In this document: positions 17,054-47,396 of the stretch, one piece after another
Layout of the letters: each line of letters begins with the position of its first letter
How positions within the stretch are numbered: the stretch's first letter is position 1
NCBI RefSeq assembly: GCF_014334135.1
Contig: NZ_CP060497.1
Span: 4,836,001 to 4,900,000 of the forward strand
Length of the DNA: 64,000 nt
Reading direction: 5' to 3'
From: Olivibacter sp. SDN3
GTDB taxonomy: Bacteria; Bacteroidota; Bacteroidia; Sphingobacteriales; Sphingobacteriaceae
The notes under the pieces: model-generated
Told to the model about the DNA's origin: nothing
Database searches by the model: none
The model's input: only the letters and a program-made list of their open reading frames with translations
Position numbers and translations under genes: made by a program

Positions 17054-17076
17054 TCCTAAAAAACAGTTATTTTTAG

Positions 17077-29870: not shown

Positions 29871-29925
29871 TAACCAGTAGCCTTATAGCTAAAAGGAGCT
29901 GTCTAAAAAGCCCTATTAATAGAAG

Positions 29926-29966: not shown

Positions 29967-31324
29967 TCCTAAAAAACAGTTATTTTTAGGTGCACCCAAA
30001 CAATATGGCAAACATACTATTCAAAGCATTACCGTCCAACAGTCCGAGCCTGTTTCCGGAAGATATTTTTGCAAAGATCCCAGAGAACCACCCGGTACGT
30101 CTGGTAAATGCAGTGGTTGACAGACTGAACATCGACCACATCATAGGACAGTACAAAGGTGGCGGCACGAGCAGTTTACATCCGCGTATGATGATCAAAG
30201 TGCTGTTCTATGCCTATCTGGGCAACATCTATTCGTGCCGCAGGATAGAAAAGGCCTTACAGGAGAATATCTATTTCATGTGGCTTTCGGGCCACAGTGC
30301 ACCGGATTACCGAACGATCAACCACTTCCGTGGCAAAAGACTTAAAGGGCATATCCATTCCCTTTTTGCCGATGTTGTCCGTTTGCTTGCCGAACTGGGC
30401 TATGTAAGCCTAAAGGTCCAGTACATAGACGGTACAAAGATTGAATCGGCGGCAGGCCGTTACACTTTTGTATGGAAAGGTTCGGTGGAAAAGAACAAAG
30501 CAAAACTGGAAAATAAAATACAGTCGGTCCTCTCGGACATTGAATCACAGATAAAACAGGACCAATCGGAACTGGGCAGGGATGAAACACCCAAACCTAT
30601 TAAGAGCAATGAGCTCAGGGACAGACTTTCTTTACTGAACGAAAAGCTCAAAGCAACAGCAAAACCTACCCAAAAACAGCTTAAAAAGCTGCGGGAAGAA
30701 CATCTTCCAAGGCTGGAAAAGTACGAAAAGCAATTGGCTACACTGGGGGAAAGGAACAGTTACAGCAAAACCGATGAAGATGCCACCTTCATGCGGCTGA
30801 AAGATGACCACATGCAGAACGGGCAGCTCAAACCGGCCTACAACACGCAGATCAGTACGGAAGAACAGTTCATCACCCACTACAGTATCCACCAGACAAG
30901 CACCGATACCACCACATTGGAAGACCATCTTGATAGCTTCGAAGATCAATATAACAGGCAGAGCGATGTGGTGGTGGCCGATGCCGGTTACGGAAGTGAA
31001 GAGAACTATGAAATGCTGGAATCAAAGAACATAGAAGGTTACGTGAAATATAATTACTTCCACAAAGAGCAGAAACGCAACCAGAGGAACAATCCTTTTC
31101 TATTACAGAACCTGTATTATCATAAAGAGCAGGACTTCTATGTGTGCCCGATGGGACAGAAGATGGAGTTTGCCGGTAAGGGAATACGCAAAAGCACCAA
31201 TGGATATAGTTCCCGGGTGAGCTATTACAGGGCCGAACGCTGTGAAGGCTGCCCGCTTCGGGGGCAGTGGAGTTGCTACCTTTAAAGCGAGACAGATTTA
31301 GACAGTAATTTTAAATTTGTAGAA

Positions 31325-31624
31325 ATGCATAGAAAATTTGATGATTCGTTTAAGATAATGGCGGTCGATTTGAGCGTTGTTAAGGGATCTGTAGCCGATG
31401 TAGCTAAGGAATTAGACATAGACCCCAGTTTACTGAGTAAATGGCGTAGAAATCCACGTTATAATGGGAATAAGGTTTTACCTGACAATCCCAAGATCAG
31501 TCCGGAGGAGCAGGAGTTAAGGATTTTACGCAAGAAATTAAGAGATACAGAATTAGAACGCGATATCTTAAAAAAGGCCATAGCCATCTTCTCCAGGGGA
31601 GACGGTCCATATACCGGTTCATAA
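31325..31624 (+). CDS. IS3-family transposase OrfA
   Basis: A 99-residue helix-turn-helix protein that binds the element ends. The HTH covers about residues 8-45 (SVADVAKELDIDPSLLSKWR), followed by a leucine-zipper-like helix ELRILRKKLRDTELERDIL. The last codons KKAIAIFSRGDG lie after the slippery site. Ribosomes that do not shift end at 31624. Confidence 0.9.
   Translation: MHRKFDDSFKIMAVDLSVVKGSVADVAKELDIDPSLLSKWRRNPRYNGNKVLPDNPKISPEEQELRILRKKLRDTELERDILKKAIAIFSRGDGPYTGS
31570..31576 (+). other. Programmed -1 frameshift site A AAA AAG
   Basis: The heptamer AAAAAAG is in phase with orfA codons (TTA AAA AAG). After a -1 slip the reading continues open from GGC at 31576 through to orfB, giving residues ending YRFIKENREVYSVEKMCEV, which is a typical OrfB beginning. 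The slip would make the OrfAB fusion transposase. Confidence 0.8.
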
Positions 31625-31656
31625 AGGAGAACCGAGAAGTATATTCCGTAGAGAAG

Positions 31657-32487
31657 ATGTGCGAAGTATTGAACGTTAGCAGCAGTTGTTTTTACCGTTG
31701 GCTGGTTTGGCCCGAATCCCCCAGGGAACAACGCAGTAAAGCACTTGTGGATAAAATACAGCAGGTACACAGTGACAGTAAGTATATCTATGGCAGCCCA
31801 CGGATAACCGCAGAGCTGCACAAAAAAGGTGAAATGGTATCAAGAAGCTACGTAGCAAGATTGATGAAGAAACATGGGATACGAAGTAAGGTTAAGAAAA
31901 AATATAGGGTGACCACAGATTCGAGCCATAGTTATAGGATAGCTGAAAATCTCCTCCAAAGAGATTTTTCAGCGGATTCCCTATCGCAAAAATGGGTTAG
32001 CGACATTACTTACATCCATACCGGCAAAGGGTGGCTTTATCTAACAACGGTTATCGATCTGGCGGACAGAAAAGTCATTGGATGGTCTTTAAGCACCGAT
32101 ATGACGACTAAAAACACTTCTGTACAAGCCATCAAAATGGCTATTAGAAACCGAGGTATCAAAGATGGTCTTATCTTCCATTCGGATAGAGGGATCCAAT
32201 ATGCCTGCGATGAATTCAGGAGGGTAATTGTAAAAAACAAGATACTTCAAAGCATGAGTAGGAAGGCCAATTGCTGGGACAATGCAGTAGCTGAGAGCTT
32301 TTTCAAGACACTAAAGGCTGAAATGATCTACCATAGAAAATTCATCGATCAGCAATCGGCTAAATTGGAGATCTTTGGATATATTGAAGGTTTTTATAAT
32401 ACCAAAAGAACACATTCTGCCCTGGGATATAAAACCCCTAAGCAGATCGAAGAGATGCTATTGGAAAAAGAGAAAATGGCAGCATAA
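31657..32487 (+). CDS. IS3-family transposase OrfB (catalytic part of OrfAB)
   Basis: The retroviral integrase-type DDE domain. The acids are D116 (WVSDITYI), D177 (HSDRGIQYA) and E213 (DNAVAESFFKTLK), with the canonical 35-residue spacing between the last two. An HTH-like region and YIYGSPRITAELHKKG lie upstream. The ATG at 31657 is an internal Met; the natural product is probably the frameshift fusion starting at 31325. C-terminal YNTKRTHSALGYKTPKQ is the family ending. Confidence 0.93.
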   Translation: MCEVLNVSSSCFYRWLVWPESPREQRSKALVDKIQQVHSDSKYIYGSPRITAELHKKGEMVSRSYVARLMKKHGIRSKVKKKYRVTTDSSHSYRIAENLLQRDFSADSLSQKWVSDITYIHTGKGWLYLTTVIDLADRKVIGWSLSTDMTTKNTSVQAIKMAIRNRGIKDGLIFHSDRGIQYACDEFRRVIVKNKILQSMSRKANCWDNAVAESFFKTLKAEMIYHRKFIDQQSAKLEIFGYIEGFYNTKRTHSALGYKTPKQIEEMLLEKEKMAA

Positions 32488-33030
32488 AAAAGTCTCCTAT
32501 TTTAAGTTGCAATTCCACAGTGCCATAAAGCGCAGGGAAACAGGATCATCGAAGTCAACCACCGGTTGAACGAACTGAAGACCAGGGCACGCGAACGTCT
32601 AACATCGGAAACAGGAAAGTACCACCGGAGTAAACGCCCCATAGAAGTGGAGGCGGTCTTCGGACAGATGAAAAGCAACAACAGATTCAACAGGTTAACC
32701 ATGAGGGGGCTTGAAAAGGTCGATATTGAGTTCGCCCTGATGTGTATAGGGCATAACCTGAGAAAATGGTCGAAAAAGCTCCTGAAAACAACTTCGTCAG
32801 GCCCAAACAACGAACCTAAATACAATAATCCCCTTATTTATGACCCCAAATGGATAAACTACTGCTATCAACCATTGGTCGCAGAGTAACATCCTAAAAC
32901 CGATAGACTCTACAGGTAGATACAAAACGAAAGAAGGCGCCCTTTTTAGACGCCTTCTTTTTTATACCTTTACACGCTTCTATTTAACATTTAAATGACC
33001 TATTACAATAGCCTTTATATTTAATATACT

Positions 33031-33051
33031 TATATTTGTTATACTAAATAT
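33031..33051 (+). promoter_or_regulatory. Candidate promoter and autoregulatory operator of the MarR gene
   Basis: TATATTTG (33031-33038) is an exact TAnnTTTG box. It overlaps an inverted repeat ATATTT-N8-AAATAT (33032-33051) that ends 4 bases before the ATG. This position would suit autorepression by the MarR protein (inference). Confidence 0.4.
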
Positions 33052-33055
33052 TGTT

Positions 33056-33490
33056 ATGCAAACAGAACCTTATAACATGTATTCTTTCATACTCGATCGC
33101 ACTGCTCGTCGGGTAAAGCAATATGCGCAAGCGGCCTTTGCCAATAACGGATTCGATATTACGCTAGATCAATGGATGGTTTTAAAAAGTCTTCATGAGT
33201 TTTCAGATCTTTCACAAAGAGAACTAGCAGAACGTTGTGGGAAAGACCAACCTACATTAACCCGTATAGTAGATATTCTCGTAAAAAAACAGCTAGCCGA
33301 GCGACGTGTACACCCCAACGACAGGAGAAGTTTTATTGTACATCTTACAGAACAGGGAAAATTAAAAGTCGCTGAGTTTTCTCCAGAAATTAAAAAGATA
33401 CGTACAAAAGCATGGGAAAATCTAGATGAAGAGGATTTCAATCAATTGGCACGCATACTGAATACAATATATAATAACTTAGAGCTGTAA
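33056..33490 (+). CDS. MarR-family transcriptional regulator
   Basis: A 144-residue winged-helix dimeric regulator. The DNA-binding domain spans about residues 45-105, with LSQRELAERCGKDQPTLTRIV as the recognition region and the wing ERRVHPNDRRSF. It starts at 33056 and is followed after 29 bases by a flavoprotein oxidoreductase gene on the same strand, so it probably controls that gene and the ferredoxin gene, as well as itself. The ligand is unknown. Confidence 0.9.
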   Translation: MQTEPYNMYSFILDRTARRVKQYAQAAFANNGFDITLDQWMVLKSLHEFSDLSQRELAERCGKDQPTLTRIVDILVKKQLAERRVHPNDRRSFIVHLTEQGKLKVAEFSPEIKKIRTKAWENLDEEDFNQLARILNTIYNNLEL

Positions 33491-33519
33491 AGCAGGTGGT
33501 ATACACAAATTAAGAACAG

Positions 33520-34524
33520 ATGATAACAACAGATATATGTATTATTGGTGCAGGCCCAGTCGGTCTATTTGCGGTATTTGAAGCAGGTCTTCTAAAAATG
33601 CGCTGTCATTTAATAGATGCCTTGCCGCAAGTGGGTGGCCAACTCTCAGAAATATATCCACATAAACCCATATACGACATTCCCGGATATCCCACCATTA
33701 AGGCACAGGAGCTTATCGACAGACAGATGGAACAGATAGCGCCCTTTCATCCTACTTTTACTTTAGGTGAGCGTGTAGAGTCACTTGAAAAACAATCTGA
33801 TGATTCATACCTGATTTTTGGGAACGAGGGCACAAATATACATGCGAAAGTAGTTGTTATAGCGGGTGGTTTAGGTTCTTTTGAACCTCGTAAACCTGAT
33901 ATACCAGGCCTTTCTACTTATGAAGGAAAGGGAGTAAGTTATATGGTAAAAAACCCTGAATTATTCAGAGACCGCAAAGTAGCCATCGCTGGAGGAGGTG
34001 ATTCTGCCTTAGATTGGGCAATCTTTCTTAGCGAAATTGCGCAACGTGTCACACTTATCCATCGGAGCGACAATTTCAGGGGAGCTCCAGATTCTGCCGC
34101 GAAAGTATTTGAGTTAGCACAAGCTGGAAAAATCGACTTGTTACTATCACACAATATACATAGTGTAGACGGGTATGGCCATTTAAATAGAGTTGGCGTA
34201 GTGAACAAGCAACAAGAAACTTCTTTCATCGAAGTCGATGCATTAATTCCTTTGTTCGGCTTGAGTCCTAAACTAGGAGCAATCGCAAACTGGGGCTTGA
34301 ACATCGATAAATCGGCGATAGCAGTCGACACATTCGATTATTCAACCAACATTGAACGCATCTATGCTATAGGTGATATTAACACCTATCCAGGCAAATT
34401 AAAACTGATATTATGTGGATACCATGAAGCCGCCTTAATGGCACAAAGTGCTTTTAAGTACGTGTATCCCGAACAAAAATTGAGTTTCAAATACACCACG
34501 GTCAACGGTATCAACGCTTTTTAA
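33520..34524 (+). CDS. Thioredoxin reductase-like ferredoxin--NADP+ reductase
   Basis: A 334-residue FAD/NAD(P)H oxidoreductase. It has the FAD motif IIGAGPVGLFAVFEAG (about residues 7-22), VGGQLSEIYPHKPIYDIPGY, and the NAD(P) motif VAIAGGGDSALDWAI (about 156-170). IYAIGDINTYPGKLK closes the FAD domain. The CxxC redox pair of thioredoxin reductases is absent, which marks the ferredoxin reductase branch. A 2Fe-2S ferredoxin gene follows 87 bases later, the likely electron partner. It is cytoplasmic. Confidence 0.88.
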   Translation: MITTDICIIGAGPVGLFAVFEAGLLKMRCHLIDALPQVGGQLSEIYPHKPIYDIPGYPTIKAQELIDRQMEQIAPFHPTFTLGERVESLEKQSDDSYLIFGNEGTNIHAKVVVIAGGLGSFEPRKPDIPGLSTYEGKGVSYMVKNPELFRDRKVAIAGGGDSALDWAIFLSEIAQRVTLIHRSDNFRGAPDSAAKVFELAQAGKIDLLLSHNIHSVDGYGHLNRVGVVNKQQETSFIEVDALIPLFGLSPKLGAIANWGLNIDKSAIAVDTFDYSTNIERIYAIGDINTYPGKLKLILCGYHEAALMAQSAFKYVYPEQKLSFKYTTVNGINAF

Positions 34525-34611
34525 AACGCTTAAGCGCAATTTATATCGTATTGAGCTAGTTAAAAGTCGTTTTTTATGGGACTTTGACGTTAATACTAAA
34601 CACAAACAACA

Positions 34612-34935
34612 ATGATTCATATTACAGTTGAAGATCGAAATGGCTGCACACAAGTGATAGAAATTCCGGAAGACATCAATTTAAGCTTAATGGAAATTCT
34701 GAAAGCTTCTGAATACAATATATTAGCTACCTGTGGGGGCATGGCCCTCTGCGCAACATGTCATGTTGAAGTACAGGCTGGCATAACGCACTTGCATGAG
34801 CCGTCGGAAGAAGAGCTAGATATGCTGGACGCTTTACCTGATGCTGATGAGAACAGTAGGCTCGCTTGCCAAATAAGGCTTTCTGAACAGCTTGATGGTC
34901 TCCAAGTGAAAATCAAAGGCACCTTGAATGAGTAG
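34612..34935 (+). CDS. 2Fe-2S ferredoxin, adrenodoxin type
   Basis: A 107-residue electron carrier. The cluster cysteines are in ATCGGMALCATCHVEV (pattern C-X5-C-X2-C) plus a fourth in SRLACQIRL near residue 86. The C-X5-C-X2-C spacing is that of adrenodoxin/putidaredoxin/Fdx-type ferredoxins rather than plant type. Paired with the upstream reductase it forms a short NADPH to ferredoxin chain. The terminal acceptor (for example a P450, an oxygenase or Fe-S assembly) is not visible in this window. Confidence 0.9.
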   Translation: MIHITVEDRNGCTQVIEIPEDINLSLMEILKASEYNILATCGGMALCATCHVEVQAGITHLHEPSEEELDMLDALPDADENSRLACQIRLSEQLDGLQVKIKGTLNE

Positions 34936-35065
34936 CAAACTATAAGTCTATTACAGATGAAGGAATAAAGAGGTAATTATTTATTAAATTAGCCTGACGG
35001 TTCTAGCCGTAACAGTATGTTTTTTTGGCTATATTTATCTAACAGGGCTAACCAATAAGTAAGAT

Positions 35066-35920
35066 ATGATCGAGATTACCGAATGTCCGAGAGATGCGAT
35101 GCAGGGCATCCATCATTTTATACCCACCGAAATCAAGGCAACATACCTCAATCTACTGCTTAAGGTTGGATTCGATCGTTTGGATTTCGGAAGTTTTGTC
35201 TCGCCGAAGGCAATACCCCAATTAATTGATACGGTAGATGTCTTACATCGATTAGACCTTTCACAAACTTCAACAAAACTCCTTGCTATCATTGCTAATG
35301 TACGTGGAGCAATAGAGGCTTGTACCCACAAAGAAATAAGTTTTTTAGGCTTTCCCTTTTCTGTTTCCGAAACTTTTCAGCTACGCAATACGAATGCGGG
35401 CATTACAGATTCGCTTGAGCGTGTGAAAGAAATCATATCACTCTGTGACAAACATAATAAACAGCCGCTTGTATATTTATCAATGGCTTTCGGAAATCCA
35501 TATAACGATCCTTGGAGCCCAGAAATTGTCACCGAGTATACAGAGCAATTAGTGCAGATGGGAATCAAAAACCTAATGTTGGCAGATACCACAGGCGTAT
35601 CGACTCCTGAAAACATCAAACAGCTATACGATACATTGCATGCGAGCTTCCCAACAATCGATCTCGGTATGCACCTGCACAGCACGCCGCCTACAGTAGT
35701 GAAAAAAATAGAAGCCGCTTTCAATAGTGGTTGCAAGCGCTTTGATACTGCATTAGGTGGATATGGTGGTTGCCCAATGGCAAGTGACAAGCTAACTGGA
35801 AACATCGCTACCGAGGCCTTATTAAGCTTTCTAAAGGATAAGGGCAATTTTGCGGCGATTAACGAAGAGGCACTTTTTCAAGCACAAAGCTATAGTAATA
35901 AAAAAGTTTTTCGGCCATAG
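35066..35920 (+). CDS. Hydroxymethylglutaryl-CoA lyase
   Basis: A 284-residue TIM-barrel lyase of the HMGL/DRE family that cleaves HMG-CoA to acetoacetate and acetyl-CoA at the end of leucine degradation. The N-terminal metal and substrate motif is ITECPRDAMQG (residues 3-13). Then come DFGSFVSPKAIPQ, metal His residues in GMHLHST, and the catalytic Cys loop GGYGGCPMASDKLTGN (about 230-245). It lies 130 bases after the ferredoxin gene and may be separately transcribed. A bidirectional terminator follows. Confidence 0.9.
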   Translation: MIEITECPRDAMQGIHHFIPTEIKATYLNLLLKVGFDRLDFGSFVSPKAIPQLIDTVDVLHRLDLSQTSTKLLAIIANVRGAIEACTHKEISFLGFPFSVSETFQLRNTNAGITDSLERVKEIISLCDKHNKQPLVYLSMAFGNPYNDPWSPEIVTEYTEQLVQMGIKNLMLADTTGVSTPENIKQLYDTLHASFPTIDLGMHLHSTPPTVVKKIEAAFNSGCKRFDTALGGYGGCPMASDKLTGNIATEALLSFLKDKGNFAAINEEALFQAQSYSNKKVFRP

Positions 35921-35984
35921 TACGTAGCAAGCACGTCTAGGTCATCATAGATTTATTTTGTACCAAAAATATATACGCCTGTAC

Positions 35985-36015
35985 AAAAAAAGGAGATCAA
36001 TTGACCTCCTTTTTC
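35985..36015. terminator. Bidirectional terminator
   Basis: AAAAAAGGAG and CTCCTTTTT flank the inner palindrome TCAATTGA, giving a stem with an A-run on one side and a T-run on the other. It separates the convergent HMG-CoA lyase and rplT genes. Confidence 0.75.
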
Positions 36016-36041
36016 ACTAATAGACTATGATAAATTAATAT

Positions 36042-36386
36042 TTATTTAACTGTATCAATTACTGCTTTGAAAGCGTCTGGGTTGTTCAAAGCTAAGTCTG
36101 CTAAAACCTTACGGTTTAAGCCGATATCCTTAGCATTTAACTTACCTATCAATTGAGAATAAGAAATTCCGTGTTGACGGGCACCCGCATTGATACGTTG
36201 AATCCATAATGCTCTAAATTCTCTTTTCTTGGTTTTACGGTCGCGATAAGCATATTGCAAACCTTTTTCAACCGTATTTTTAGCAATGGTGTAAACCTTG
36301 CTACGTGACCCATAGTAACCCTTGGCTAATTTAAGGATCTTTTTTCTTCTTCTTCTCGAAGCTACTGCGTTAACCGAACGTGGCAT
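36042..36386 (-). CDS. rplT: 50S ribosomal protein L20
   Basis: A 114-residue basic rRNA-binding protein needed for early 50S assembly. It begins [16 protein letters not shown] and contains [17 protein letters not shown] and [12 protein letters not shown], all L20 hallmarks. It is last in the operon thrS-infC-rpmI-rplT. In other bacteria L20 represses this operon by binding the mRNA leader; no such structure was resolved here. Confidence 0.98.
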
Positions 36387-36491
36387 AGTAAATTTAATTA
36401 ATTTGGTAAAAGGCGCTGTGTTTTCTATTGTTTACAGTCAACAGGCTTACAACCCAATACCCGGTTAATAAAATGTGTTAATAATAATCTG

Positions 36492-36692
36492 TTATTTCCC
36501 GATAGCAAGCATACGTTTTACATTGCCCATATCTCCATCAGCTACCAAACCCGTCTGCGTTAAATTACGCTTGCGCTTAGTACTCTTCTTGGTTAAGATA
36601 TGGCTTTTATATGCGTGTTTTCTCTTGATCTTACCTGTTCCAGTAATAGCGAAACGCTTTTTTGCACTGGAATTGGTTTTTACTTTTGGCAT
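36492..36692 (-). CDS. rpmI: 50S ribosomal protein L35
   Basis: A 66-residue basic protein with the family pattern [20 protein letters not shown], followed by [22 protein letters not shown] (given in two parts: [11 protein letters not shown] and [11 protein letters not shown]). It lies between infC and rplT, the standard order. Confidence 0.98.
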
Positions 36693-36812
36693 AATCTTAT
36701 CTATTTTTATCTATCTATTAGTCAATCTACATACATCCTCACGCGCCTTCAAGACATGTATTCCTCAAATAATATGAAGGCCGCCTTCCTAAAGCTAACG
36801 AAGAACGTTTTT

Positions 36813-37382
36813 TTATTTGTTTTTTGGATTTTTTGGAGCCACGGTAATAAACATACGTTTACCTTCCAATTTTGGAAGAAGTTCCACTTTACCAATTTCC
36901 TCCAATGCCTGAGCAAACTTTAAAAGAAGGATTTCTCCCCGGTCTTTATATACAATTGCTCGGCCTTTAAAATGTACATAAGCACGAACCTTCTCGCCTG
37001 CTTCCAAAAATTTGATTGCGTGCTTAAGCTTGAAGTCGAAGTCGTGTTCGTTCGTATTAGGGCCAAAACGAATTTCTTTAATAACCGTTTGCTTGGCATT
37101 CGCCTTAATTTCTTTTAGCTTCTTTTTTTGTTCGTAAACAAATTTGCTGTAATCAACAACTTTACATACGGGAGGATTTGCATTTGGAGAGATTTCAACC
37201 AAATCAAGGTCTAGATCATCGGCTATCGCCAACGCTTGCTTAATTGGATAAACCCCTTGTTCTACATTTTCACCAACCAGACGTACTTCTGTTGCTCTGA
37301 TATGTTGATTAATTCGATGATCGGGTTCTTTCTTTTTAAACGGAGGGCGCGGCCCTCTCATTCCTGGTCTTCCTAATGCCAA
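36813..37382 (-). CDS. infC: Translation initiation factor IF-3
   Basis: Binds the 30S subunit, prevents premature 50S joining and checks the start codon. It has 189 residues: an N-terminal domain with [20 protein letters not shown], a basic linker, and a C-terminal domain with [17 protein letters not shown]. The chosen start is a TTG at 37382. It is preceded by an AAAGGA ribosome site at the right distance, whereas the first ATG is 21 bases downstream. Rare start codons on infC support autoregulation in E. coli (AUU). It starts 14 bases after the thrS stop. Confidence 0.93.
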
Positions 37383-37396
37383 ATTTTTCCTTTAAT

Positions 37397-39322
37397 TTAA
37401 ATAGTTATTTCCTTTGTTAATTGCGTTTGGAAAGCTTCCGCAGTCATACTGCCAAGGTCGCCTTCGCCATGTTTTCGCACAGAAACCGTGCCATTCTCCA
37501 CCTCTTTTTCACCCACTATAAGCATGTAAGGTATCTTTTTTACTTCAGCGTCACGGATCTTCCTTCCAACTTTTTCATCTCGCAAATCAATCAACCCGCG
37601 AATATCGGTATTATTTAGTGATTCTAAAAGTTTTTTCGCATATTCTTCGTACTTTTCTGACACTGGCAATACAATAAACTGCTCAGGTATAAGCCATAAT
37701 GGGAACTCCCCTGCACAGTGCTCAATAAGCACAGCTACAAAGCGCTCCAATGAACCGAAAGGCGCACGATGTATCATTACAGGACGATGTTTTTGATTAT
37801 CACTTCCGGTGTATTCCAGTTCAAAGCGGTCCGGCAGGTTATAATCTACCTGAATAGTTCCCAATTGCCATTTCCGTCCAAGGGCATCTTTCACCATAAA
37901 ATCCAGCTTAGGACCATAGAAAGCAGCCTCTCCAAGCTCAACTACTGTATCTAATCCCTTTTCTTCTGCTGCTTCAACAATTGCGGCTTCTGCGAGCAGC
38001 CAGTTTTCTTCTGTACCAATATATTTTGATTTATTCTCTGGATCACGTAGCGAAATCTGCGCGGTATAAGAATCAAATCCCAGTGCCTTAAATACATAGA
38101 GTACTAGATCGATTACTTTTTTGAATTCGTCTTTCACCTGATCTGGCCTACAAAACAGATGGGCATCGTCTTGTGTAAAGCCCCTTACACGGGTTAACCC
38201 GTGTAATTCTCCACTTTGCTCATAACGATAAACTGTTCCAAACTCGGCAAAACGCACGGGTAAATCTTTATAGGAACGTGGTTTAGTTTTATAAATTTCA
38301 CAATGATGAGGACAATTCATTGGTTTTAAGAAAAACTCCTCCCCCTCCTGTGGTGTTTTAATGGGCTGAAAAGAATCCGCTCCATATTTCTCGTAGTGTC
38401 CAGATGTAACGTATAGATTTTTATGCCCAATATGTGGTGTAATCACCGGTTCATATCCCGACCGTATCTGCGCTCTTTGCAAAAAGTCTATCAACTTTTG
38501 CCGAAGTGCTGCCCCTTTGGGCAGCCATAATGGCAGTCCCATCCCAACCTTTTCAGAAAATGTAAACAACTCCAGCTCTTTTCCTAATTTACGATGGTCA
38601 CGCTTCTTAGCTTCTTCAATCATCTTAAGATAATCGGCCAACTCCCCAGCTTTCGGAAAGGTAACACCATAAATTCTTGTGAGCTGCTTACGACTCTCAT
38701 CGCCACGCCAATAAGCGCCAGCTACATTTGTGAGTTTAATAGCTTTGATAAAACCTGTATTTGGGATATGCGGTCCTCTACAGAGATCGGTAAAATTACC
38801 TTGTGTATAAAAAGTGATCGTGCCATCTTCAAGATCCTTAATCAGATCTAACTTATACTCATCACCTTTCTCTACAAAATAAGCTTCTGCATCTGCTTTA
38901 GAGACCTCTTGCCTAACATAAACAGCCTTGGTGCGTGCAAGCTCCAACATTTTATCCTCTATTTTTTTGAAATCATCTGAGGAAAAATTACGGTCACCAA
39001 AATCGACATCGTAATAAAACCCTGTTTCAATAGCTGGACCGATACCAAATTTTGTTCCCGGATAAAGTGCTTCCAAAGCTTCCGCCATCAAGTGAGCCGA
39101 TGAATGCCAAAAAGTTGCTTTACCATCTTGGTCATTCCAGGTTAATAAACGTACGTGGGCATCTTTCTCAATTGATCTCGTAGCGTCCCATACTTGGCCA
39201 TCTACCTCCGCAGCTAAGACATTACGGGCTAGACCTTCAGAAATAGATTGTGCAATTTGCAAGGAGGTTGTTCCTTTTTCATACTGACGGAAAGAACCGT
39301 CAGGAAGTGTAATTTTAATCAT
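37397..39322 (-). CDS. thrS: Threonine--tRNA ligase
   Basis: Class II aminoacyl-tRNA synthetase, 641 residues. It has an N-terminal TGS domain (1-60) and an editing domain with [11 protein letters not shown] (about 73-83). The catalytic core has [11 protein letters not shown] (zinc Cys) and [20 protein letters not shown] (motif 2), with [13 protein letters not shown] (motif 3) following. The C-terminal anticodon-binding domain starts around 540. It heads the translation operon thrS-infC-rpmI-rplT. A TATCTTTG promoter box lies about 75 bases upstream. Confidence 0.98.
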
Positions 39323-39394
39323 CTACAACTATGATTTTAAGTTTTTTTTAAATAATTCAATCAAAATCACCTACTACGTGATTTTTTGCAAACA

Positions 39395-39402
39395 CAAAGA
39401 TA
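39395..39402 (-). promoter_or_regulatory. Candidate -7 element for the thrS operon
   Basis: The minus strand reads TATCTTTG (39402-39395), an exact TAnnTTTG, 73 bases before the thrS ATG. The -33 box is weak. Confidence 0.45.
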
Positions 39403-39593
39403 GTAAGTTTTAGAAGAATTTGAAGTATTTACAACATTCGGCGTGTAGATAACACCATAAAAACGTATAACCAAATTTTCACACACACAAGCCAAACAAT
39501 AACCTATTAGCTACACAATCGATAATGCGGTAAATCTATTGTTTAATTATCTACGTACTATATCAAACAAGAAGCTAGCAGGCGATTAGAAGA

Positions 39594-41216
39594 ATGAAGA
39601 ATAGCAGAAATTTGGTTCTATTGATAGAAAGTATTAAGGTATATGTACATAACAAATATTGGATACTACTTACCATTACAGTTCTCTTGGTCGGCTTCGT
39701 GATTACAAGTCTAAGTTCAACTCATACGGATAATAAATTGCAGGGACATACTCAACATCCGAAAGCCAATAACCAAACGTCTGAAATATTGTCGTTGGAA
39801 AAAGAGATCCAAGCAGTTAATCGTACGATAGGAAGGCTAAATAACGACGTCAATGAGCAGCTGAACAAAACAGAAGAAGAAATGCAAGTGGATGCAAACA
39901 GGCGAAAAAGTATAGATAAACTAGCTATTCAAAAGCTGGAAACCATGTTAACCTATGCAGAGACGCCCATAGGACAATTTAATCAAATACCTCTCTTTCC
40001 CTTAAACGATTCACAGCTGGTACGCTCAGTCGAACAATACAATCATCTACAAATAGTCTATTTTAAAGATCGGTCGACTCTTCCAAATGTACAATTCGCA
40101 CAACAAACACTGATTGGGACCTTAAAAGATAAAATCCGGAAAGAACATCAAATCAACGAGCGTCGATCAAAAACAAAGCAAACAGCCCCGGTTGAACAAA
40201 GTGCAACGCTAGAAGCGTTATTTACCGAATTGGATTCCGTAACCGAAAAATATCATGACCTGCTAGAGCAATACCAAACAACGCTCAAGCATACCGCGCC
40301 ATTAACCATACATCGTGGTGAAGACACTACGGCAAGCACGTCAACAGTCATTAACTCGCTTACTTTTAGGAAACCATCATCATCGACGTCTATTGCCTGG
40401 TTATCGGTGAGCATACTTAGCACGATCATCTTGCCTATTGGCTTCATTTTTTATCGTAAATACCGTCATCCCAAAGTCGTCAGACCGCAGGATATTGCAA
40501 CTAAAGATCCGGTTATCTATTTCCATCCCAAAAAGGCCACACTATCGATTGACGACAACGACCAGTCAAGCCTCAAAGCACTGACCAAAATAATGCGTCA
40601 GCTACAAACATCGGATCCTTCCAATACGCCACTTATAGGTATTTATTCTTTATGCACGGCTGAAGAACGGTTTAACGCCATCCAAAGCATTGCTTTGTTT
40701 CTAGCAAAAGAAGGTCATAGTGTGATCCTTTTACATTTGGTGCCAACACAAACGTCTGATGCACCAATAAAACTAAGTGCAGGTGGTACACTTCTAGATT
40801 GGATAAATGATCGGAATTATACGGTTGATAGCATGCTAAAAAAAGACCGCTCACATGATGCCTTACATCATATTTATCTAGAAATGGGCGATAAGGAATC
40901 ATCTACAGTAGATGCAAACACCCTTCAGGAGGAATTTTCCCAATTTAAACAAAAGCTGCTACTTAAAGAAAGGACAAAGGATTTACTTCGTTGGCTGAAA
41001 AGGAGTTATGACTATAGTTTAGTATCTACACCACCTTTAACCGATATACACCAACCGTTGCTCTACATCCCCTACAGCAATATGAGCATTAATATTTTTT
41101 ATTGCCATATTACTAACAGGAAGGACGCTGAAAAGTTATGCAGATTGAGCAAAGACGGTAACAGACGCAGCTTATCCATACTTGTAGATCAACAGGAAAA
41201 AGAATTTTACAACTAA
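39594..41216 (+). CDS. Wzc/BY-kinase-like membrane protein lacking Walker motifs
   Basis: A 540-residue protein with two membrane helices (about residues 22-41 and 264-286). They flank an external, mostly helical coiled-coil region, the layout of polysaccharide co-polymerase/BY-kinase proteins. The C-terminal cytoplasmic domain follows the Wzc fold order. The place of the P-loop holds GIYSLCTAEERFNA (about 348-361) without GxxGxGK[ST]. The Walker A' Asp motif is replaced by VILLHLVP. The closing YDYSLVSTPPL (about 470-480) still resembles the YDxVIIDTPP strand. No Tyr-rich tail is present. It is probably a catalytically dead relative. An OmpA-domain gene follows after 13 bases. Confidence 0.6.
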   Translation: MKNSRNLVLLIESIKVYVHNKYWILLTITVLLVGFVITSLSSTHTDNKLQGHTQHPKANNQTSEILSLEKEIQAVNRTIGRLNNDVNEQLNKTEEEMQVDANRRKSIDKLAIQKLETMLTYAETPIGQFNQIPLFPLNDSQLVRSVEQYNHLQIVYFKDRSTLPNVQFAQQTLIGTLKDKIRKEHQINERRSKTKQTAPVEQSATLEALFTELDSVTEKYHDLLEQYQTTLKHTAPLTIHRGEDTTASTSTVINSLTFRKPSSSTSIAWLSVSILSTIILPIGFIFYRKYRHPKVVRPQDIATKDPVIYFHPKKATLSIDDNDQSSLKALTKIMRQLQTSDPSNTPLIGIYSLCTAEERFNAIQSIALFLAKEGHSVILLHLVPTQTSDAPIKLSAGGTLLDWINDRNYTVDSMLKKDRSHDALHHIYLEMGDKESSTVDANTLQEEFSQFKQKLLLKERTKDLLRWLKRSYDYSLVSTPPLTDIHQPLLYIPYSNMSINIFYCHITNRKDAEKLCRLSKDGNRRSLSILVDQQEKEFYN

Positions 41217-41229
41217 ATAGATCAATATC

Positions 41230-41693
41230 ATGAGAAGTAATTACTTAACAAAAAGTGTCTTAAGTTTATGCGCTGCACTGGGTTTACTGGGCATCATCGC
41301 TTTTAAAGATATTTCGGTAAATCGAACCGAAATACCGAACAAAATGGCAATTGCGTCCGACGCTGTTATTATGCGAGAATTCAAAAATATTGAATTTGAT
41401 TTTGACAACGGTCGAAAGACCACCAACTATTAGATAGTATCGTTAACGAACTTTTAAGTGATGATGCTATTGTAAAGTTAGGTGGACATGCCGATTCGAT
41501 TGGCCCTTATGTTTACAATTGGCATTTATCAAAATCGAGAGCAGATGAAGTGAAATCGTATCTCGTAAGTAAGGGCGTTGATGAAACGAGAATTTCATCC
41601 ACTGAATTCGGAAACACGCAACCTATTGCTTCCAATGAAACAGCAGAAGGACGACAAAAAAATCGGCGTGTAGAGATAGAGGTCGTAGAATAA
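41230..41693 (+). pseudogene. OmpA-domain protein, frameshifted
   Basis: The first frame (41230-41433) has a signal or anchor helix (SVLSLCAALGLLGIIAF) and the start of an OmpA C-terminal domain, IEFDFDNG. It then runs to a stop as RKTTNY. The rest of the domain continues in the -1 frame: SKDHQLLDSIVNELL, GGHADSIG, NWHLSKSRADEVKSYL, and GRQKNRRVEIEVVE, ending at 41693. The break therefore lies near 41405-41415. The whole would be about 154 residues of peptidoglycan-binding OmpA type. It could be a true mutation, a sequencing error or, less likely, recoding. It is close behind the Wzc-like gene. Confidence 0.8.
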
Positions 41694-41704
41694 GCCTTCG
41701 CATT

Positions 41705-41762
41705 ACATGCGACATAAAGCTGACCGGGAATTTCAATTGATGGCCAGCTTTATGTTGCATGT
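41705..41762. terminator. Long hairpin between convergent genes
   Basis: ACATGCGACATAAAGCTG (41705-41722) pairs with CAGCTTTATGTTGCATGT (41745-41762): 18 bp with a single G-T pair. No long T-run follows on either strand, but the position between convergent stops suits a bidirectional terminator. Confidence 0.65.
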
Positions 41763-41768
41763 ATCTAC

Positions 41769-42518
41769 TTACAATTCCTTAATACGTATATTTCTGAACC
41801 AAGCACTATCGCCGTGATCTTGCAGTGCTATTTTACCATGATCAGTTATTTTATAATCAGGAAAATCTTTCCATTTACCTGCTGATTTTTCCTGCTCCCA
41901 TTCTTCAGTGCCTTCTTCAAATTCCACCACTTTTTTACCATTGAGCCAATGTTCTACATGGCCATCGTTATATACAATTTTACTGGTGTTCCATTCACCC
42001 ACGGGTTTTACTTCTGTCTGGTCTTCATCGGCAGGATTCATCGCATAGTTTGCTCCTGTTTTCTGCCAATCTTCAATTTTTTCAGGGAACCCTTCGTCAT
42101 CAATCATTTGATACTCGGGTCCTGTTTCGTATGGCGCTTTGTATTTCGCTTCTTCCACTACGTGATACATTACACCGGAGTTACCTTCTTTCGCAATTTT
42201 CCATTCCCATTCCAATTCGAAATTTCCAAATTCCCGATCGCTTACCAGATCGCCGCCAAAGTCCTCTTTATTCCCTTTACCTGTACACGCTAATGCACCA
42301 TCCTGTACTTCCCAGTTATTTACCGATTCTGTTTTGTTGTAGCCATGCCAGCCTGTCAAACTTTCACCATCAAAAAGGTCGATCCATTCTTCTGCAGTGG
42401 CCGCCGTTTCCGTCAAATCTACGTCGCCATCCTGTTGATCACCGCTATTAGAATTACATGAACTCACACCTATAGCCAACGCCGCTATTGCAGCCATTTT
42501 CATTGTTTTCTGTATCAT
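41769..42518 (-). CDS. DUF1080 (3-keto-disaccharide hydrolase family) lipoprotein
   Basis: A 249-residue secreted protein. The frame extends to 42581, but the ATG at 42518 gives the lipoprotein signal (MIQKTMKMAAIAALAIGVSSC, Cys 21) and is preferred. One DUF1080 concanavalin-like domain follows an acidic linker: WIDLFDGESLTGWHGYN, then EWKIAKEGNSGVMYHV, PVGEWNTSKIVY and the final GKIALQDHGDSAWFRNIRIKEL (given as KIALQDHG and WFRNIRIKEL). Members of this family hydrolyse 3-keto-glycosides. It is the last gene of the sigma-FecR-SusCD-Gfo/Idh-DUF1080 unit. The protein is unusually acidic. Confidence 0.88.
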   Translation of the reverse strand: MIQKTMKMAAIAALAIGVSSCNSNSGDQQDGDVDLTETAATAEEWIDLFDGESLTGWHGYNKTESVNNWEVQDGALACTGKGNKEDFGGDLVSDREFGNFELEWEWKIAKEGNSGVMYHVVEEAKYKAPYETGPEYQMIDDEGFPEKIEDWQKTGANYAMNPADEDQTEVKPVGEWNTSKIVYNDGHVEHWLNGKKVVEFEEGTEEWEQEKSAGKWKDFPDYKITDHGKIALQDHGDSAWFRNIRIKEL

Positions 42519-42651
42519 ATGATGTTTACAATTGTTGTCAAATAGTAAAGTATAAAACCGTTGAACGGAACAGTAAAGCATCTCAGGCAGACACCTTAAA
42601 TAATTATAAAAACCTATAAACTGCTATTTACACATTTTATATATACCTAAA

Positions 42652-45600
42652 TTACAGTCTCTTTACACGAATATTCTTAAAATGCACTTCAGATCCATGT
42701 CCTAAAAATGCTAAATGACCACTTTTGCGTTTTAGCCCCGGATGCTCACGGCCGTCAAGCGTTCCATTTTGCGTCGCTATAGCAAGATCGCCATCCACGA
42801 TGACCGTTCCGTTGAGTGTCACTTTTATCTTATTATCTTTGATATAGATCTCTTGCTCATTCCACTCTCCCAAAGGTTTTAAATAGCCTCTTTTTGCGGG
42901 GATCACGCCGTACACAGAACCATGGTATTGATATTCTTTCAAATCCTTATAAACTTCAGCTTCGTCATCCAGCACCTGAATTTCCATCCCTTCATAGGCA
43001 GCATCACCCTCCATCGGTGTTCTCACACCTATTCCATTATTTGCTCCGGTAGTTAAGCGAAAGCTAAACCGGTAAATAAAATCTCCATATTCCTCTTTTG
43101 AATATAGATTACCTCCGGAGCCTTCTGTCGGATAAATGGCAAGCGTCCCCTCCTCACTAATTGTATAGGCTGTGGTATTTCCCGTCCATGCATCGAGGTT
43201 AGTACCATCAAACAATACTTGAAACCCTTCGGATTTCTCCTGACCACTTAACTGAAAGACTTCTTTCCTTGGTACCTCTTTAATGTAAACATCTCTATAA
43301 GCCACTTCCGTTCCATGCGCCTGTAGTTCAATCTGTTCTACAGGAAAGATCGGTTGACTTCTGTCCCAAAAGTTTTCGAGTGTAACATCTTCTACAACCA
43401 ACTGTCCGTTTAAATATACCGTCACCTTCTCCCCCTTCATAATAATTCTAAAAGTATTCCATTCACCCAAGGGGTTATCAGCTACTACAAGTGGTTTACT
43501 TTCATGCTTTTCATTATTGTAAAGACCGCCTGAGCCCACCTGAGCTCCTACATTGGTACGAGAGGTATCCCAAATCTGCACCTGCGGAGTGCCACGTAGA
43601 TAAACCCCAGCGTCTCCCTCATCTCCTATCGGACTAAGTTTCCAGTCGACCAACATTTCAAAGTCGCCATATTGTTTGACTGTAGCAATATTATCTCCTT
43701 CACCATTAAAGTAAAGCACGCCATCTTTTACAAACCATCCGTTGCGCATCGTCTCATCCGCTTTTTCCTGAGCAGCAGCTAATTCTTTCGAACTCATTTG
43801 AGCTCTTTTGATTGGATTTTCGACCAAGCCTTTCCACCCCGTTAAGTCTTTCCCATTAAAAAGAGAAACAAACCCTTGACTATTGGGCATTTCAGCGATA
43901 TGTTTTAATAAAGCTTGTTTAAGATAATCGCTATCCTGTCCACTTAAGGCATCAACCGTTTTATCCAGAATTTCCCGCACTTCGGAGCCATATAATGACG
44001 GGTTATCCAATGCGATATTCAAAACGGCCATTGCCGCAGCGGATTTCGCCTCCGCATCATCAAGATACCTACCGGCGAACACCAAAGCATTATAAGTTTT
44101 ATTCTCTTGCAATGCGTTTAGCACCATTCTTTTCTGATTGGCATTTTGCGCAACAGCCATTACGTCCCTTAAAATCAACACTTTTTGTTCAGGTTGAAAA
44201 TCAGACTGCATGGTTAATCGCACGATACCCTTTACTATAGCAGCGTGCTCTTCGGCACCTTTGTTTTCACGACTCAACTTAATAAGCTCCGTTAAAGCTC
44301 CCTCATCTTTCCAGTCGGCCAGGGCCATTATCGCGGCACGCTTTAACGTTTCATCACTTCCTTGTTCTGCCTCTACTACCGGATCTAGTGCCTTTCCAAC
44401 ACCTATTCCCGAAAAAACGTTTAAATACAAAGGTTTCTGTTCGGCATCTACACTGTTATACCTGTCAAGTAAAAACTGGATCGCCTGATCTTTTTGCGGT
44501 GTATTATCTGCCGCAGCAGTTAACGACCGTTGGATTGCCGCAACCTCCTCTTCATTGTTGTTCTTCACTAAAGCATCCGTTAAAAACGCCAAATTATCGC
44601 CAGAAACGACAGCAGGTAATGCTTGATATGCTGTACTTCTAACCGAGGTGTCGTCACTTGCCAATAAGTCGCTAATAGCGGAGAAACTGTCTTGTGCGCC
44701 CCTATTAGCGAGTACTTCAATAAGCACAACCTGATCAGCTGGATTGGCTTGCGGCAAAGCAGCCACTAGGCTATTAGCGAGACCATCTCCCTCCATCGTC
44801 AACAATGCATATTGAATAGCCTCCCGTTCGGCATTATCGTCAGCATCAGCCAATAGTTCCAATAATTGCGGCATAGCTTCCATTCCCTGTAGTTTCGCAT
44901 AAGACTTAATCGCTTCGGTTTTCACCAAGGTGTCCTTGCTATTCAAAGCCCTCTCCACGAACGGCACGGCCGTCTGGTCACCACCATCTGCTAAGGCATT
45001 CAAAATGGCAGCTTGGGTAACAGGTATAGTTCTTCTAAGTCCTTTTCCCCAAGCAGCTACCGCGTTCCCTTTTAGATAAGGATCTCCTAGCTTCAGTGCT
45101 GCAACACCATATGCGGCATCTTTATCACGCGCTGCCTTAACCAATTGTGAAACATATCGGTCGCCATGAAGATGTGCAAGAATTGTCAGAGCAGCTATTC
45201 GAGTAGGTGTTTGCTGTTTACTGCTCTTTAACAATGACTTTGCCACCTTCTCAGCAGCAGCATTTTCGCCTTTAGCTAGCAGATTGTTCGCATAATTGAT
45301 ATATGAGGCAGTAGCATTTGCCTCATCATAACCGTATTCAGCTTTTTCAGCAGCCGCTTTTAAGGCATCCACTGAACTTGAAGACGGTACGGCGAGTTTT
45401 GCCAATGTGTATAGGGCTGTTTTTCTTACTGGAATTTCTTCTGACGATGCGAATGGCACCACCAATTCCTCTGCGGGGGCATACCCAGCGTCACCTATTG
45501 CTTCCAGTATAGAAACCAATCTGCTTCCGTCAGCTTCAGGTAATGCTTTGGCTAAGGCTTCACCGGCATGATCACTTTGAATACGTGCTAATGTTCTGGC

Positions 45601-46056
45601 TGCACGGTCAGTCAAATATTCTTCGCCCAAGCAGGAAGCTATTGCAGCTACCGCATCATCCTTTCCGGCATTGATGAGCAAATTAAGAATATATCCTTTA
45701 TTATCTTTATCGGTGGCTTTGGCCAAAGCATCTACGGCGCCTTTCACAAATTTAACACGTTGTGCCTCTTTATCAGACCGCATCACATGATATGAATAAC
45801 TATTGGTTGCGTATTCTATTTTTGCATTCTCCCCTCCCTGAGGTTCTAGTTGTAAAAGTAACGCACTGATATCTTCTGCGGTAAAAGTTTCGAGCTGCTG
45901 CATGGCCGCAGCTAACTTATCAGCATCTGCTGCTGGCTGAACGGCCAACAAGTCCGCAATTTTCGTGTTTACGGTTCGTTGATCATCCTGTTGTGCAATT
46001 AACTGCGATTGCAACAAGATGAAAGCCAAGGCCGTTGTATAAATATATTTCTTCAT
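42652..46056 (-). CDS. Large secreted protein: HEAT repeats plus two DUF1080 domains
   Basis: 1134 residues with a signal peptide (MKKYIYTTALAFILLQSQLIAQQ; the cut is after about residue 21). Residues about 30-715 are tandem helical HEAT-like repeats, Ala/Leu rich. A first DUF1080 domain starts near 725 (LFNGKDLTGWKGL; PLGEWNTFRI; IELQAHG) and a second near 943 (LFDGTNLDAWTGN; PLGEWNEQEIYI; GHLAFLGHGSEVHFKNI). The fusion joins a scaffold to two putative 3-keto-glycoside hydrolase domains. It is periplasmic or exported. It lies between the Gfo/Idh gene (68 bases upstream) and the single-domain DUF1080 gene. Confidence 0.88.
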   Translation of the reverse strand: MKKYIYTTALAFILLQSQLIAQQDDQRTVNTKIADLLAVQPAADADKLAAAMQQLETFTAEDISALLLQLEPQGGENAKIEYATNSYSYHVMRSDKEAQRVKFVKGAVDALAKATDKDNKGYILNLLINAGKDDAVAAIASCLGEEYLTDRAARTLARIQSDHAGEALAKALPEADGSRLVSILEAIGDAGYAPAEELVVPFASSEEIPVRKTALYTLAKLAVPSSSSVDALKAAAEKAEYGYDEANATASYINYANNLLAKGENAAAEKVAKSLLKSSKQQTPTRIAALTILAHLHGDRYVSQLVKAARDKDAAYGVAALKLGDPYLKGNAVAAWGKGLRRTIPVTQAAILNALADGGDQTAVPFVERALNSKDTLVKTEAIKSYAKLQGMEAMPQLLELLADADDNAEREAIQYALLTMEGDGLANSLVAALPQANPADQVVLIEVLANRGAQDSFSAISDLLASDDTSVRSTAYQALPAVVSGDNLAFLTDALVKNNNEEEVAAIQRSLTAAADNTPQKDQAIQFLLDRYNSVDAEQKPLYLNVFSGIGVGKALDPVVEAEQGSDETLKRAAIMALADWKDEGALTELIKLSRENKGAEEHAAIVKGIVRLTMQSDFQPEQKVLILRDVMAVAQNANQKRMVLNALQENKTYNALVFAGRYLDDAEAKSAAAMAVLNIALDNPSLYGSEVREILDKTVDALSGQDSDYLKQALLKHIAEMPNSQGFVSLFNGKDLTGWKGLVENPIKRAQMSSKELAAAQEKADETMRNGWFVKDGVLYFNGEGDNIATVKQYGDFEMLVDWKLSPIGDEGDAGVYLRGTPQVQIWDTSRTNVGAQVGSGGLYNNEKHESKPLVVADNPLGEWNTFRIIMKGEKVTVYLNGQLVVEDVTLENFWDRSQPIFPVEQIELQAHGTEVAYRDVYIKEVPRKEVFQLSGQEKSEGFQVLFDGTNLDAWTGNTTAYTISEEGTLAIYPTEGSGGNLYSKEEYGDFIYRFSFRLTTGANNGIGVRTPMEGDAAYEGMEIQVLDDEAEVYKDLKEYQYHGSVYGVIPAKRGYLKPLGEWNEQEIYIKDNKIKVTLNGTVIVDGDLAIATQNGTLDGREHPGLKRKSGHLAFLGHGSEVHFKNIRVKRL

Positions 46057-46124
46057 TGGTTGTGGGTCTTCTTTGTTTGTTATTTTTTATGCTTTACGCA
46101 ATACGCTATATTTAAAATAAAAGC

Positions 46125-47396
46125 TTAAATCGTCCAAGGTCCACGCATGGGCTGATCTACCAAACGATTGGCTGCTTCATCATCTACAAATAGTTGCTTT
46201 TCGGGATCGAACTTCAGCGACCTTCCCAAACGTAAAGCGGTAAGTCCCATATTAACCAATGTACAGGATCGATAACCATTCTCTTCGTTGAGCGCAAACT
46301 TTTGTCTTCTCTTCACCGCTTGCACAAAATCCGTTACTTGAGCTTCGGGCTCAGGAAACGCTGCCAGCTTCCGCTCCATATCCGGGATATCCGATTTAAA
46401 ACCCGGATATAATTTACCATTTGGCCCATCTATATATGGTACATCTTCATCTCTTCCCTCACCATCCAAAATAATTTTACACCCGTCGGCGTAGGTATAC
46501 TCAATTCTCCGCCAAGTACCCACTGCATCGCTATGCTGCTGCGGAGCATCTATTTCTACCGAGACCGGACTTTCATTATCCTTACCTAAAAAGTACTGAA
46601 TAGGATCTAAATAGTGTTGCCCCATATCTCCCAGGCCTCCCCCATCATAGTCCCAATAACCTCTGAAGGTTTGATGCACACGATGTGTACTATAAGGCTT
46701 AAATTGCGCCGGACCCAACCACATTTCATAATCCAACTCTGCAGGCACGGGTTCTACAGGTAAATTTTCCTTTCCTACCCAATAAAACTTCCAATCAAAA
46801 CCAGTATGTCTACTTACGGTAACTGTCAGTGGCCAGCCAAGCATACCCGTATTTATCAGCTTCTTTATCCGCTTAACGGGTACCGCCATTCCGTAAAAAT
46901 TATCTTCAAAACGAAACCATGTGTTTAATCGGAAAATGCGTCCATGTTGCTGAACAGCTTCTTTCACCTTCTTTCCCTCTCCAATTGTACGCGTCATGGG
47001 TTTTTCGCACCAGATATCTTTTCCTGCACGCGCTGCTTCTGCCGCCATAACGCCATGCCAATGTGGAGGTGTTGCAATGTGGACAATGTCTACTTCAGGT
47101 AATTGAATAAGATCTCTAAAATCAGCCAATTGCTTGATTCCGGTATCATTTAGCTGCTTCATGGCTATAGCGAGATGTCTTTTATCAACATCGCATATGG
47201 CAACCGTTTTAGTGCCGGCATAATCAAAATGCCCTCGTCCCATGGCTCCCACACCGATAATGCCTTTCGTCAAATGATCGCTTGGTGCTAAAAATCCTTG
47301 TCCCCCTAATACAAATCGGGGTACAATACTAAACGCCGCTGCTGCAAACGCCGATTTTTTTATAAACGTACGTCTGGAGGTATGTGTTTCTTTCAT
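46125..47396 (-). CDS. Gfo/Idh/MocA-family oxidoreductase with Tat signal
   Basis: A 423-residue NAD(P)-dependent sugar oxidoreductase. It has a twin-arginine signal TSRRTFIKKSAFAAAAF at residues 6-22, so it is exported folded with bound cofactor. A Rossmann domain follows (IGVGAMGRGHFDYAG near 48). The EKP motif is in WCEKPMTRT (about 134) and the active-site region GGGLGDMGQHYLDPIQYF near 257. Members oxidise the C3 hydroxyl of glycosides. Together with the downstream DUF1080 proteins this forms a 3-keto-glycoside pathway (inference). A conserved 58-bp element lies 40-97 bases upstream. Confidence 0.92.
   Translation of the reverse strand: MKETHTSRRTFIKKSAFAAAAFSIVPRFVLGGQGFLAPSDHLTKGIIGVGAMGRGHFDYAGTKTVAICDVDKRHLAIAMKQLNDTGIKQLADFRDLIQLPEVDIVHIATPPHWHGVMAAEAARAGKDIWCEKPMTRTIGEGKKVKEAVQQHGRIFRLNTWFRFEDNFYGMAVPVKRIKKLINTGMLGWPLTVTVSRHTGFDWKFYWVGKENLPVEPVPAELDYEMWLGPAQFKPYSTHRVHQTFRGYWDYDGGGLGDMGQHYLDPIQYFLGKDNESPVSVEIDAPQQHSDAVGTWRRIEYTYADGCKIILDGEGRDEDVPYIDGPNGKLYPGFKSDIPDMERKLAAFPEPEAQVTDFVQAVKRRQKFALNEENGYRSCTLVNMGLTALRLGRSLKFDPEKQLFVDDEAANRLVDQPMRGPWTI

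Follow-up and report, generated by a model that had tools for sequence, protein, structure and literature searches.

The window, i.e. the whole stretch of 64,000 nucleotides from Olivibacter sp. SDN3 that was analysed, contains at 39594..41216 on the forward strand an ORF that encodes a kinase-dead, Wzc-derived membrane protein of 540 aa. This assignment is based on the ORF and its translation, on the homologues and on an hhalign comparison with Wzc. All features of the gene given below are on the same strand. The thrS gene is divergent from it and lies 271 bases from its start. On the other side a small secreted OmpA-domain gene follows at 41230..41693 (forward strand), with its start codon 13 bases past the stop of the Wzc-derived gene. 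The OmpA-domain gene is broken, as judged from the translations, its length compared to relatives and its identity to intact relatives. Promoter-like sites showed no excess over shuffles (7 compared to a mean of 7.9). An initial annotation of the locus had proposed a two-helix topology with an external coiled coil. The two helices are supported by hydropathy, with a peak of 2.26 for TM segment 1 (residues 24-42, 39663..39719) and a peak of 2.17 for TM segment 2 (residues 267-285, 40392..40448). External helices were only seen in a full-length structure model (pLDDT 55, pTM 0.30) in which the part between the TM segments consists of helices, and we discarded this model as too poor.

The sequences that the initial annotation had quoted for the nucleotide-binding motifs are all present in the ORF. 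Alignments with canonical Wzcs place a degenerate P-loop, GIYSLCTAEERFNA, at residues 349-362 (40638..40679), a degenerate Walker A' motif, VILLHLVP, at residues 377-384 (40722..40745) and a degenerate Walker B motif, YDYSLVSTPP, at 41007..41036 (YDYSLVSTPPL when read on from residue 472). The naming of the Walker motifs follows PMC12004946 and general usage. The Lys-Ser/Thr pair of Walker A corresponds to R359-F360 and the Asp of A' to V383, so neither the Lys nor the Asp is kept, as had been claimed; in addition the Walker B Asp has been replaced by S478. The Tyr-rich C-terminal tail is absent from the protein as well. As a control we inspected 48 canonical Wzc rows, comprising ORFs of at least 600 residues with an E-value of 1e-10 or better in the fetched stretches, with shorter or cut ORFs excluded. 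These are 49 rows less L056, which is a module protein (see below), and they represent 47 genes as L014 and L059 are one gene. The P-loop Lys was present in all 48 rows: 42 showed GxGK[ST], five EGKT and one EGKG.

The descent of the protein from Wzc, a tyrosine kinase of capsule assembly, is confirmed. Taken as a single sequence its signal is marginal, with E-values of 0.016 for TIGR01007 (14.7 bits), 0.12 for AAA_31 and 0.086 for the PDB Wzc 3la6. When a profile of the five Olivibacter proteins was compared to 10 canonical Wzcs with hhalign, we obtained a probability of 99.0 and an E-value of 2.7e-18 across residues 112-515, including TM2. The C-terminal domain alone matched the canonical Wzcs with an E-value of 2.4e-12, and its pseudo-P-loop was aligned on GEGKS. 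Against PDB sequences the profile of the dead domain gave weak matches, the best being Etk with an E-value of 0.0022. A stronger list of PDB-sequence matches was set aside, as it was inflated by two canonical Wzcs contained in its alignment. Fold prediction and a structural search had been proposed in the initial annotation, and the domain does model as a P-loop fold. We made five models of the domain (residues 296-540), three of which were poor (mean pLDDT 44-48); the best reached a mean pLDDT of 67 and a pTM of 0.71. With this model Foldseek returned only BY-kinases among the 50 matches listed, at TM-scores of ∼0.5-0.6. In the VIA comparison 19 BY-kinase rows obtained Z-scores between 13.6 and 16.2, followed by ArsA with 10.9 and MinD with 10.7. 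As BY-kinases are the best matches in both comparisons and the next fold drops to a Z-score of 10.9, the modelled domain is very probably P-loop shaped with a BY-kinase fold. Profile comparison, fold match and homologues thus agree with the original description of a Wzc-like protein with decayed ATP-binding motifs.

Homologues were found in four of the five genomes of the genus, the window's included. Apart from the window genome, one copy each is present in Olivibacter sp. XZL3 and O. domesticus DSM 18733 and two in O. jilunii P8502. The fifth genome (G003) has no homologue of the pseudo-Wzc at an E-value of 1e-3, which means that not every member of the genus carries the gene. A contig search with the window protein alone gave no matches. 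The same search with an alignment gave four loci, all of them in Olivibacter (L047-L050, the same genes as L007-L010). The place of the Lys is taken by Pro in L049 and by Gln in L047 and L050. In L048 (O. domesticus) a Lys stands at this place in a loop without the P-loop glycines (GAGDQKQ), the Walker B Asp is kept and the A' Asp is absent; no NCBIfam match was found for this protein at 0.01. L048:5980-7611 is the least eroded kinase domain that we observed in the genus. The look at orthologues, which the initial annotation had proposed as a check, bears out its reading within the genus: GxxxxGK[ST] occurs in none of the four Olivibacter homologues. Two observations speak against a simple picture: L048 keeps the Lys and the Walker B Asp, and the more distant L095, a member of the same tree group, has an intact GTGKS, though neither the A' Asp nor the Tyr tail. 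For the claim that the domain is under selection for a structural role the support is only indirect: the domain is full length in all five Olivibacter proteins, and one pair, with saturated dS, gives a dN/dS of ∼0.16 for it.

The periplasmic part of the Olivibacter proteins differs from that of canonical Wzcs. A conserved periplasmic stretch, PIGQFNQIP, is found at residues 125-133 of the window protein (39966..39992), and P125, Q128, F129, N130, Q131 and P133 are invariant across the five Olivibacter proteins. From TM1 to the Pro of this motif we counted 89-95 residues in all five proteins (91 in the window protein) compared to 290-303 residues in seven canonical Wzcs. The loss from the periplasmic base amounts to about 200 residues. 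Among matches up to an E-value of 10 the window protein showed neither PF02706 (Wzz) nor PF13807 (GNVR). Both canonical Wzcs of the same genome show Wzz and GNVR, one of the two below the cut-off.

A weak match in another genus was the starting point from which we found relatives of 545-604 aa together with the gene next to them. Altogether we compared 16 proteins, referred to as module proteins: 10 were found from the Wzc side (the window protein, L047-L051 and L085-L088) and six via the OmpA gene (L089-L092, L095 and L096), so that the latter six have an OmpA neighbour by construction. A tree computed from the periplasmic and TM2 columns only, with the kinase columns excluded, placed the 16 Sphingobacteriaceae proteins in one group against 28 canonical rows (21 of the above 48 and seven others) with a support of 99/98. 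Because many of its branches are long, a single origin of the 16 proteins is likely but not proven. In the Pfam scan the Wzz domain was detected in three of the 16 (L089 and L090 above and L088 below the cut-off) and GNVR in none. The Phe and the last Pro of PIGQFNQIP are present in all 16. We also considered the QF..P stretch as an exclusive signature of the module and rejected it, as the Phe occurs in four of the 28 canonical rows as well.

The kinase motifs have been lost to a different extent in different members. L095 (713 aa) has GTGKS and L096 (720 aa) SGKA; the A' Asp and the Tyr tail are missing from both. In L051, L085, L086 and L087 at least one of the two acidic A' positions is still there but the Walker A Lys is not (in L051 a Lys is one residue off), and L087 combines EGRT with an intact A'. 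Among the 11 module proteins that bear the domain the P-loop Lys is found in three (L048, L095, L096) and an Arg in another three (window, L086, L087). L088-L092 (468-511 aa) end soon after TM2 and have no kinase domain, while their periplasmic part is long (264-283 residues). The TIGR01007 bit scores decrease from 127 for the canonical L053 to 73 for L096, 58 for L095, 52 for L087 and 14.7 for the window protein. Judged by their sequences, the module proteins represent graded stages: P-loop Lys kept, kinase dead with a shortened periplasmic part, and kinase domain gone. These graded losses give the impression that the lineage discards one of two parts, the kinase domain or the periplasmic base.

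Neither the missing periplasmic base nor the OmpA neighbour featured in the initial annotation. Among the 10 module genes that were retrieved from the Wzc side, six are immediately followed by an OmpA gene, namely L049, L051, L085, L086, L087 and the window gene with its broken copy. The other four, L047, L048, L050 and L088, have no OmpA gene in this position, which is thus empty for three of the five Olivibacter genes. In O. jilunii (L049:5986-8023) the pair is intact and its two frames share 20 bases, which is what coupled translation would lead one to expect. For O. domesticus we observed an orphan module-type small OmpA gene (L093:7004-7459), with the pseudo-Wzc on another contig without an OmpA gene; the pair either came apart or was never joined. 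Five OmpA proteins from the Wzc side served as seeds. They are 150-172 aa long, which is too short for a full OmpA barrel, and start with a signal-like stretch in which no clear lipobox is visible by eye. PF00691 was detected in the two intact relatives that were scanned, with E-values of 3.1e-23 and 2.1e-21. Intact relatives represent a small secreted form of the OmpA family; the window copy is broken.

In order to view the association from the other side we collected 28 loci by OmpA alone. These are the short-frame matches from 399 genomes of the family that were best by score (20 + 8); long-frame matches were skipped and the five seeds are outside this set. Gene content suggests that L089/L090, L097/L098, L101/L102 and L103/L113/L114 come from close relatives, hence the loci are not independent. 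Stated as raw counts, a Wzc-like gene is directly upstream on the same strand in seven loci (L089-L092, L095, L096 and L120, of which the upstream gene of L120, 460 aa, is outside the tree), a Wza-Wzc pair is found at a distance of up to ∼5 kb in nine (L097-L099, L101-L103, L106, L113, L114; Walker motifs checked in five, namely L097, L101-L103 and L106), and for the remaining 12 the stretch read contains no Wzc. The occurrence near Wza-Wzc exopolysaccharide genes suggests a wider link of this OmpA subtype to polysaccharide export. At an E-value of 1e-43 the OmpA profile matches 20 of the 399 family genomes, and at 1e-30 it matches 360, which is too permissive to tell the subtype apart. None of 393 genomes of the class pass 1e-43, an empty result that carries little weight, as weaker relatives and module Wzcs without this OmpA are invisible to such a search. 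A literature search, with most subscription journals outside its scope, found no paper that pairs a Wzc or a co-polymerase with such a small OmpA protein.

The window copy of the OmpA gene is frameshifted and does not form an intact frame with signal peptide and PF00691. Its frame runs for 67 codons to a stop at 41431-41433, and the remainder (89 residues from QLLD) is read in another frame to 41693. Between two conserved points we counted 62 nt, compared to 72 nt (24 codons) in L049, L051, L085 and L087. A net loss of 10 nt is no usual single-base error, so the break is likely to be real. The 3' fragment still shows 53-66% identity to six intact relatives, which indicates that the break is probably recent. 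We considered a programmed frameshift and set it aside: a strong slippery sequence was not visible by eye, and the second frame offers no start codon ahead of the domain.

As far as the surroundings were examined, the gene is not near polysaccharide genes, in line with the initial annotation. According to Pfam the ten neighbours in 29990-47396 are translation, metabolic, 3-keto-disaccharide hydrolase and transposase genes, and no flippase, polymerase or glycosyltransferase was noticed among the remaining window ORFs when these were read by eye. Elsewhere in the genome two canonical Wzcs (785 and 781 aa, with GEGKS and GEGKT) each follow a Wza-like gene (by reading) in a polysaccharide cluster. 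Beside thrS, the stretches inspected in all four congeners contain nothing similar to the window gene; among the genomes compared the site is thus private to the window genome. The window protein is 27% identical to its nearest homologue by identity, compared to 93% for ThrS of the same two species, which also fits relaxed constraint. For the pair from XZL3 and O. jilunii (copy b), which is 56% identical, we estimated dN/dS at ∼0.10 for the whole protein and ∼0.16 for the dead domain, dS being saturated. The fast divergence, the private site and ratios from a saturated dS leave room for slow decay. Other characteristics of the surroundings are two adjacent genes with 3-keto-disaccharide hydrolase domains at 41769-46056, the larger with HEAT repeats, which adjoin a Gfo/Idh oxidoreductase gene and (by reading) SusCD-like genes. 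At 29886-32961 there is a second copy of a transposase element found at ∼17000-18800 (99.8-99.9% identical). This copy is split by a 1.25-kb insertion with an rve-type integrase gene (31657-32487), and 5 bp repeated at the joint indicate a nested insertion.

With Wzc-type PCP-2a/BY-kinases (Wzc, Etk, VpsO, BceF, CapAB) the window protein has in common the topology, the sequence from the distal periplasm to the C-terminus and the modelled P-loop fold. It differs in the loss of Walker A, of the A' and B Asp residues, of the Tyr tail, of detectable Wzz and GNVR and of the periplasmic base. BY pseudokinases are already in print, and PMC12004946 describes EcpK (Myxococcus), HfsB (Caulobacter) and fused cases. 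EcpK and HfsB, whose PCP-2 partners are EpsV and HfsA, likewise have a BY-kinase fold without catalytic motifs or Tyr tail and a proposed scaffold role. Canonical rings assemble and disassemble with Tyr phosphorylation, whereas these two proteins are proposed to guide rings by binding alone (PMC12004946). Compared by description, EcpK and HfsB are separate proteins beside the co-polymerase, whereas the window lineage is fused, shortened and often next to an OmpA gene. Closer in architecture by description are the fused PCP-2/BY pseudokinases listed there after Cuthbertson et al. (SMc01795, BCETI_6000729, Mlr8439, VV1_2305), which join a dead kinase and a PCP part in one polypeptide. In architecture the window protein belongs with these, as it has the fold without the catalytic motifs and a joined, though reduced, PCP part.

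We think, at a probability of roughly 55%, that the window protein combines a BY pseudokinase and a reduced co-polymerase part of the Wzc type in one fusion, that it belongs to a Sphingobacteriaceae lineage losing kinase chemistry and that it acts as a phosphorylation-independent scaffold in the envelope. The explanation is based on the profile and fold matches, the contrast in the P-loop Lys (48 of 48 canonical rows compared to three of 11 module proteins), the tree group, the OmpA adjacency and the precedent of EcpK and HfsB. By analogy with these two the dead domain would serve as a scaffold for oligomerization and docking, through which rings could assemble without phosphorylation. OmpA domains bind peptidoglycan. 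We conjecture that the periplasmic helices contact the small secreted OmpA protein, that the latter binds peptidoglycan and would tie the complex to the wall, and that genes elsewhere in the genome would make the polymer, if the complex serves one at all. The role in the relatives is perhaps tied to peptidoglycan. In the window strain, with its OmpA gene broken, the protein may work without OmpA or with another OmpA protein, or it may be on its way to being lost. Evidence against the scaffold includes the broken OmpA gene, its absence beside three Olivibacter genes, the orphan in O. domesticus and the 12 OmpA loci without a Wzc. The distance of the window gene from polysaccharide genes, the long branches of the tree and the three poor domain models count against it as well. 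A further step, which we regard as speculative and doubtful, is that a Wzc lineage left polysaccharide assembly for a peptidoglycan-anchored envelope complex, composed of a kinase-stripped scaffold (some without the whole kinase domain, others without the periplasmic base) and the small secreted OmpA-domain protein.

The alternative that survives best, although we consider it unlikely, is that the protein acts, independently of kinase activity, as a co-polymerase for a Wzx/Wzy pathway whose genes lie elsewhere; the dead domain would set the ring as in EcpK/EpsV and the OmpA gene would be incidental. The two EPS clusters of the genome with their Wza-like and canonical Wzc genes are consistent with this, as are relatives in G150, G182, G396 and G254 that lie by flippase, glycosyltransferase or priming-transferase genes (by reading) and the EcpK precedent (PMC12004946). 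However, the Olivibacter proteins lack the periplasmic base (89-95 rather than 290-303 residues), show neither Wzz nor GNVR, and the OmpA gene is adjacent in six of the 10 cases found from the Wzc side. We rate it as rather improbable that the gene is simply decaying, with a frame that survives under relaxed selection as the broken OmpA neighbour would suggest. The frameshift, the fast divergence (27% compared to 93% for ThrS), the lack of anything similar beside thrS in the four congeners' stretches and the genus genome without a homologue at 1e-3 would fit, whereas all five Olivibacter proteins have open full-length frames and share invariant residues, and the one close pair has a dN/dS of ∼0.10, albeit with dS saturated.

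It is very improbable that the protein is a regulator that forms mixed rings with the two canonical Wzcs of the genome (GEGKS and GEGKT) and damps their phosphorylation. Eukaryotic pseudokinases can act in this way according to PMC12004946, but the authors of the EcpK work there argue against it in their case, the gene is not linked to the canonical Wzcs, and an identity of ∼15% to them makes shared ring contacts doubtful. Least probable of all is that the domain still binds a nucleotide or another ligand in an unusual manner, e.g. with R359 in place of the Lys: an Arg also occupies this place in L086 and L087 (EGRT with an intact A') and L048 keeps the Lys and the Walker B Asp, but the window protein has lost the A' and B Asp residues too and the Arg is not common to the other four Olivibacter proteins.

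EcpK and HfsB raise the question of how a co-polymerase can function without a phosphorylation cycle. The lineage described here provides a natural series within one bacterial family, with the P-loop kept, the P-loop lost and the domain lost, in which the parts are separable for testing. It also points to a possible wall-binding partner. A kinase-dead lineage that is often found beside an OmpA gene gives a hint of a known machine in a form that does without the kinase.
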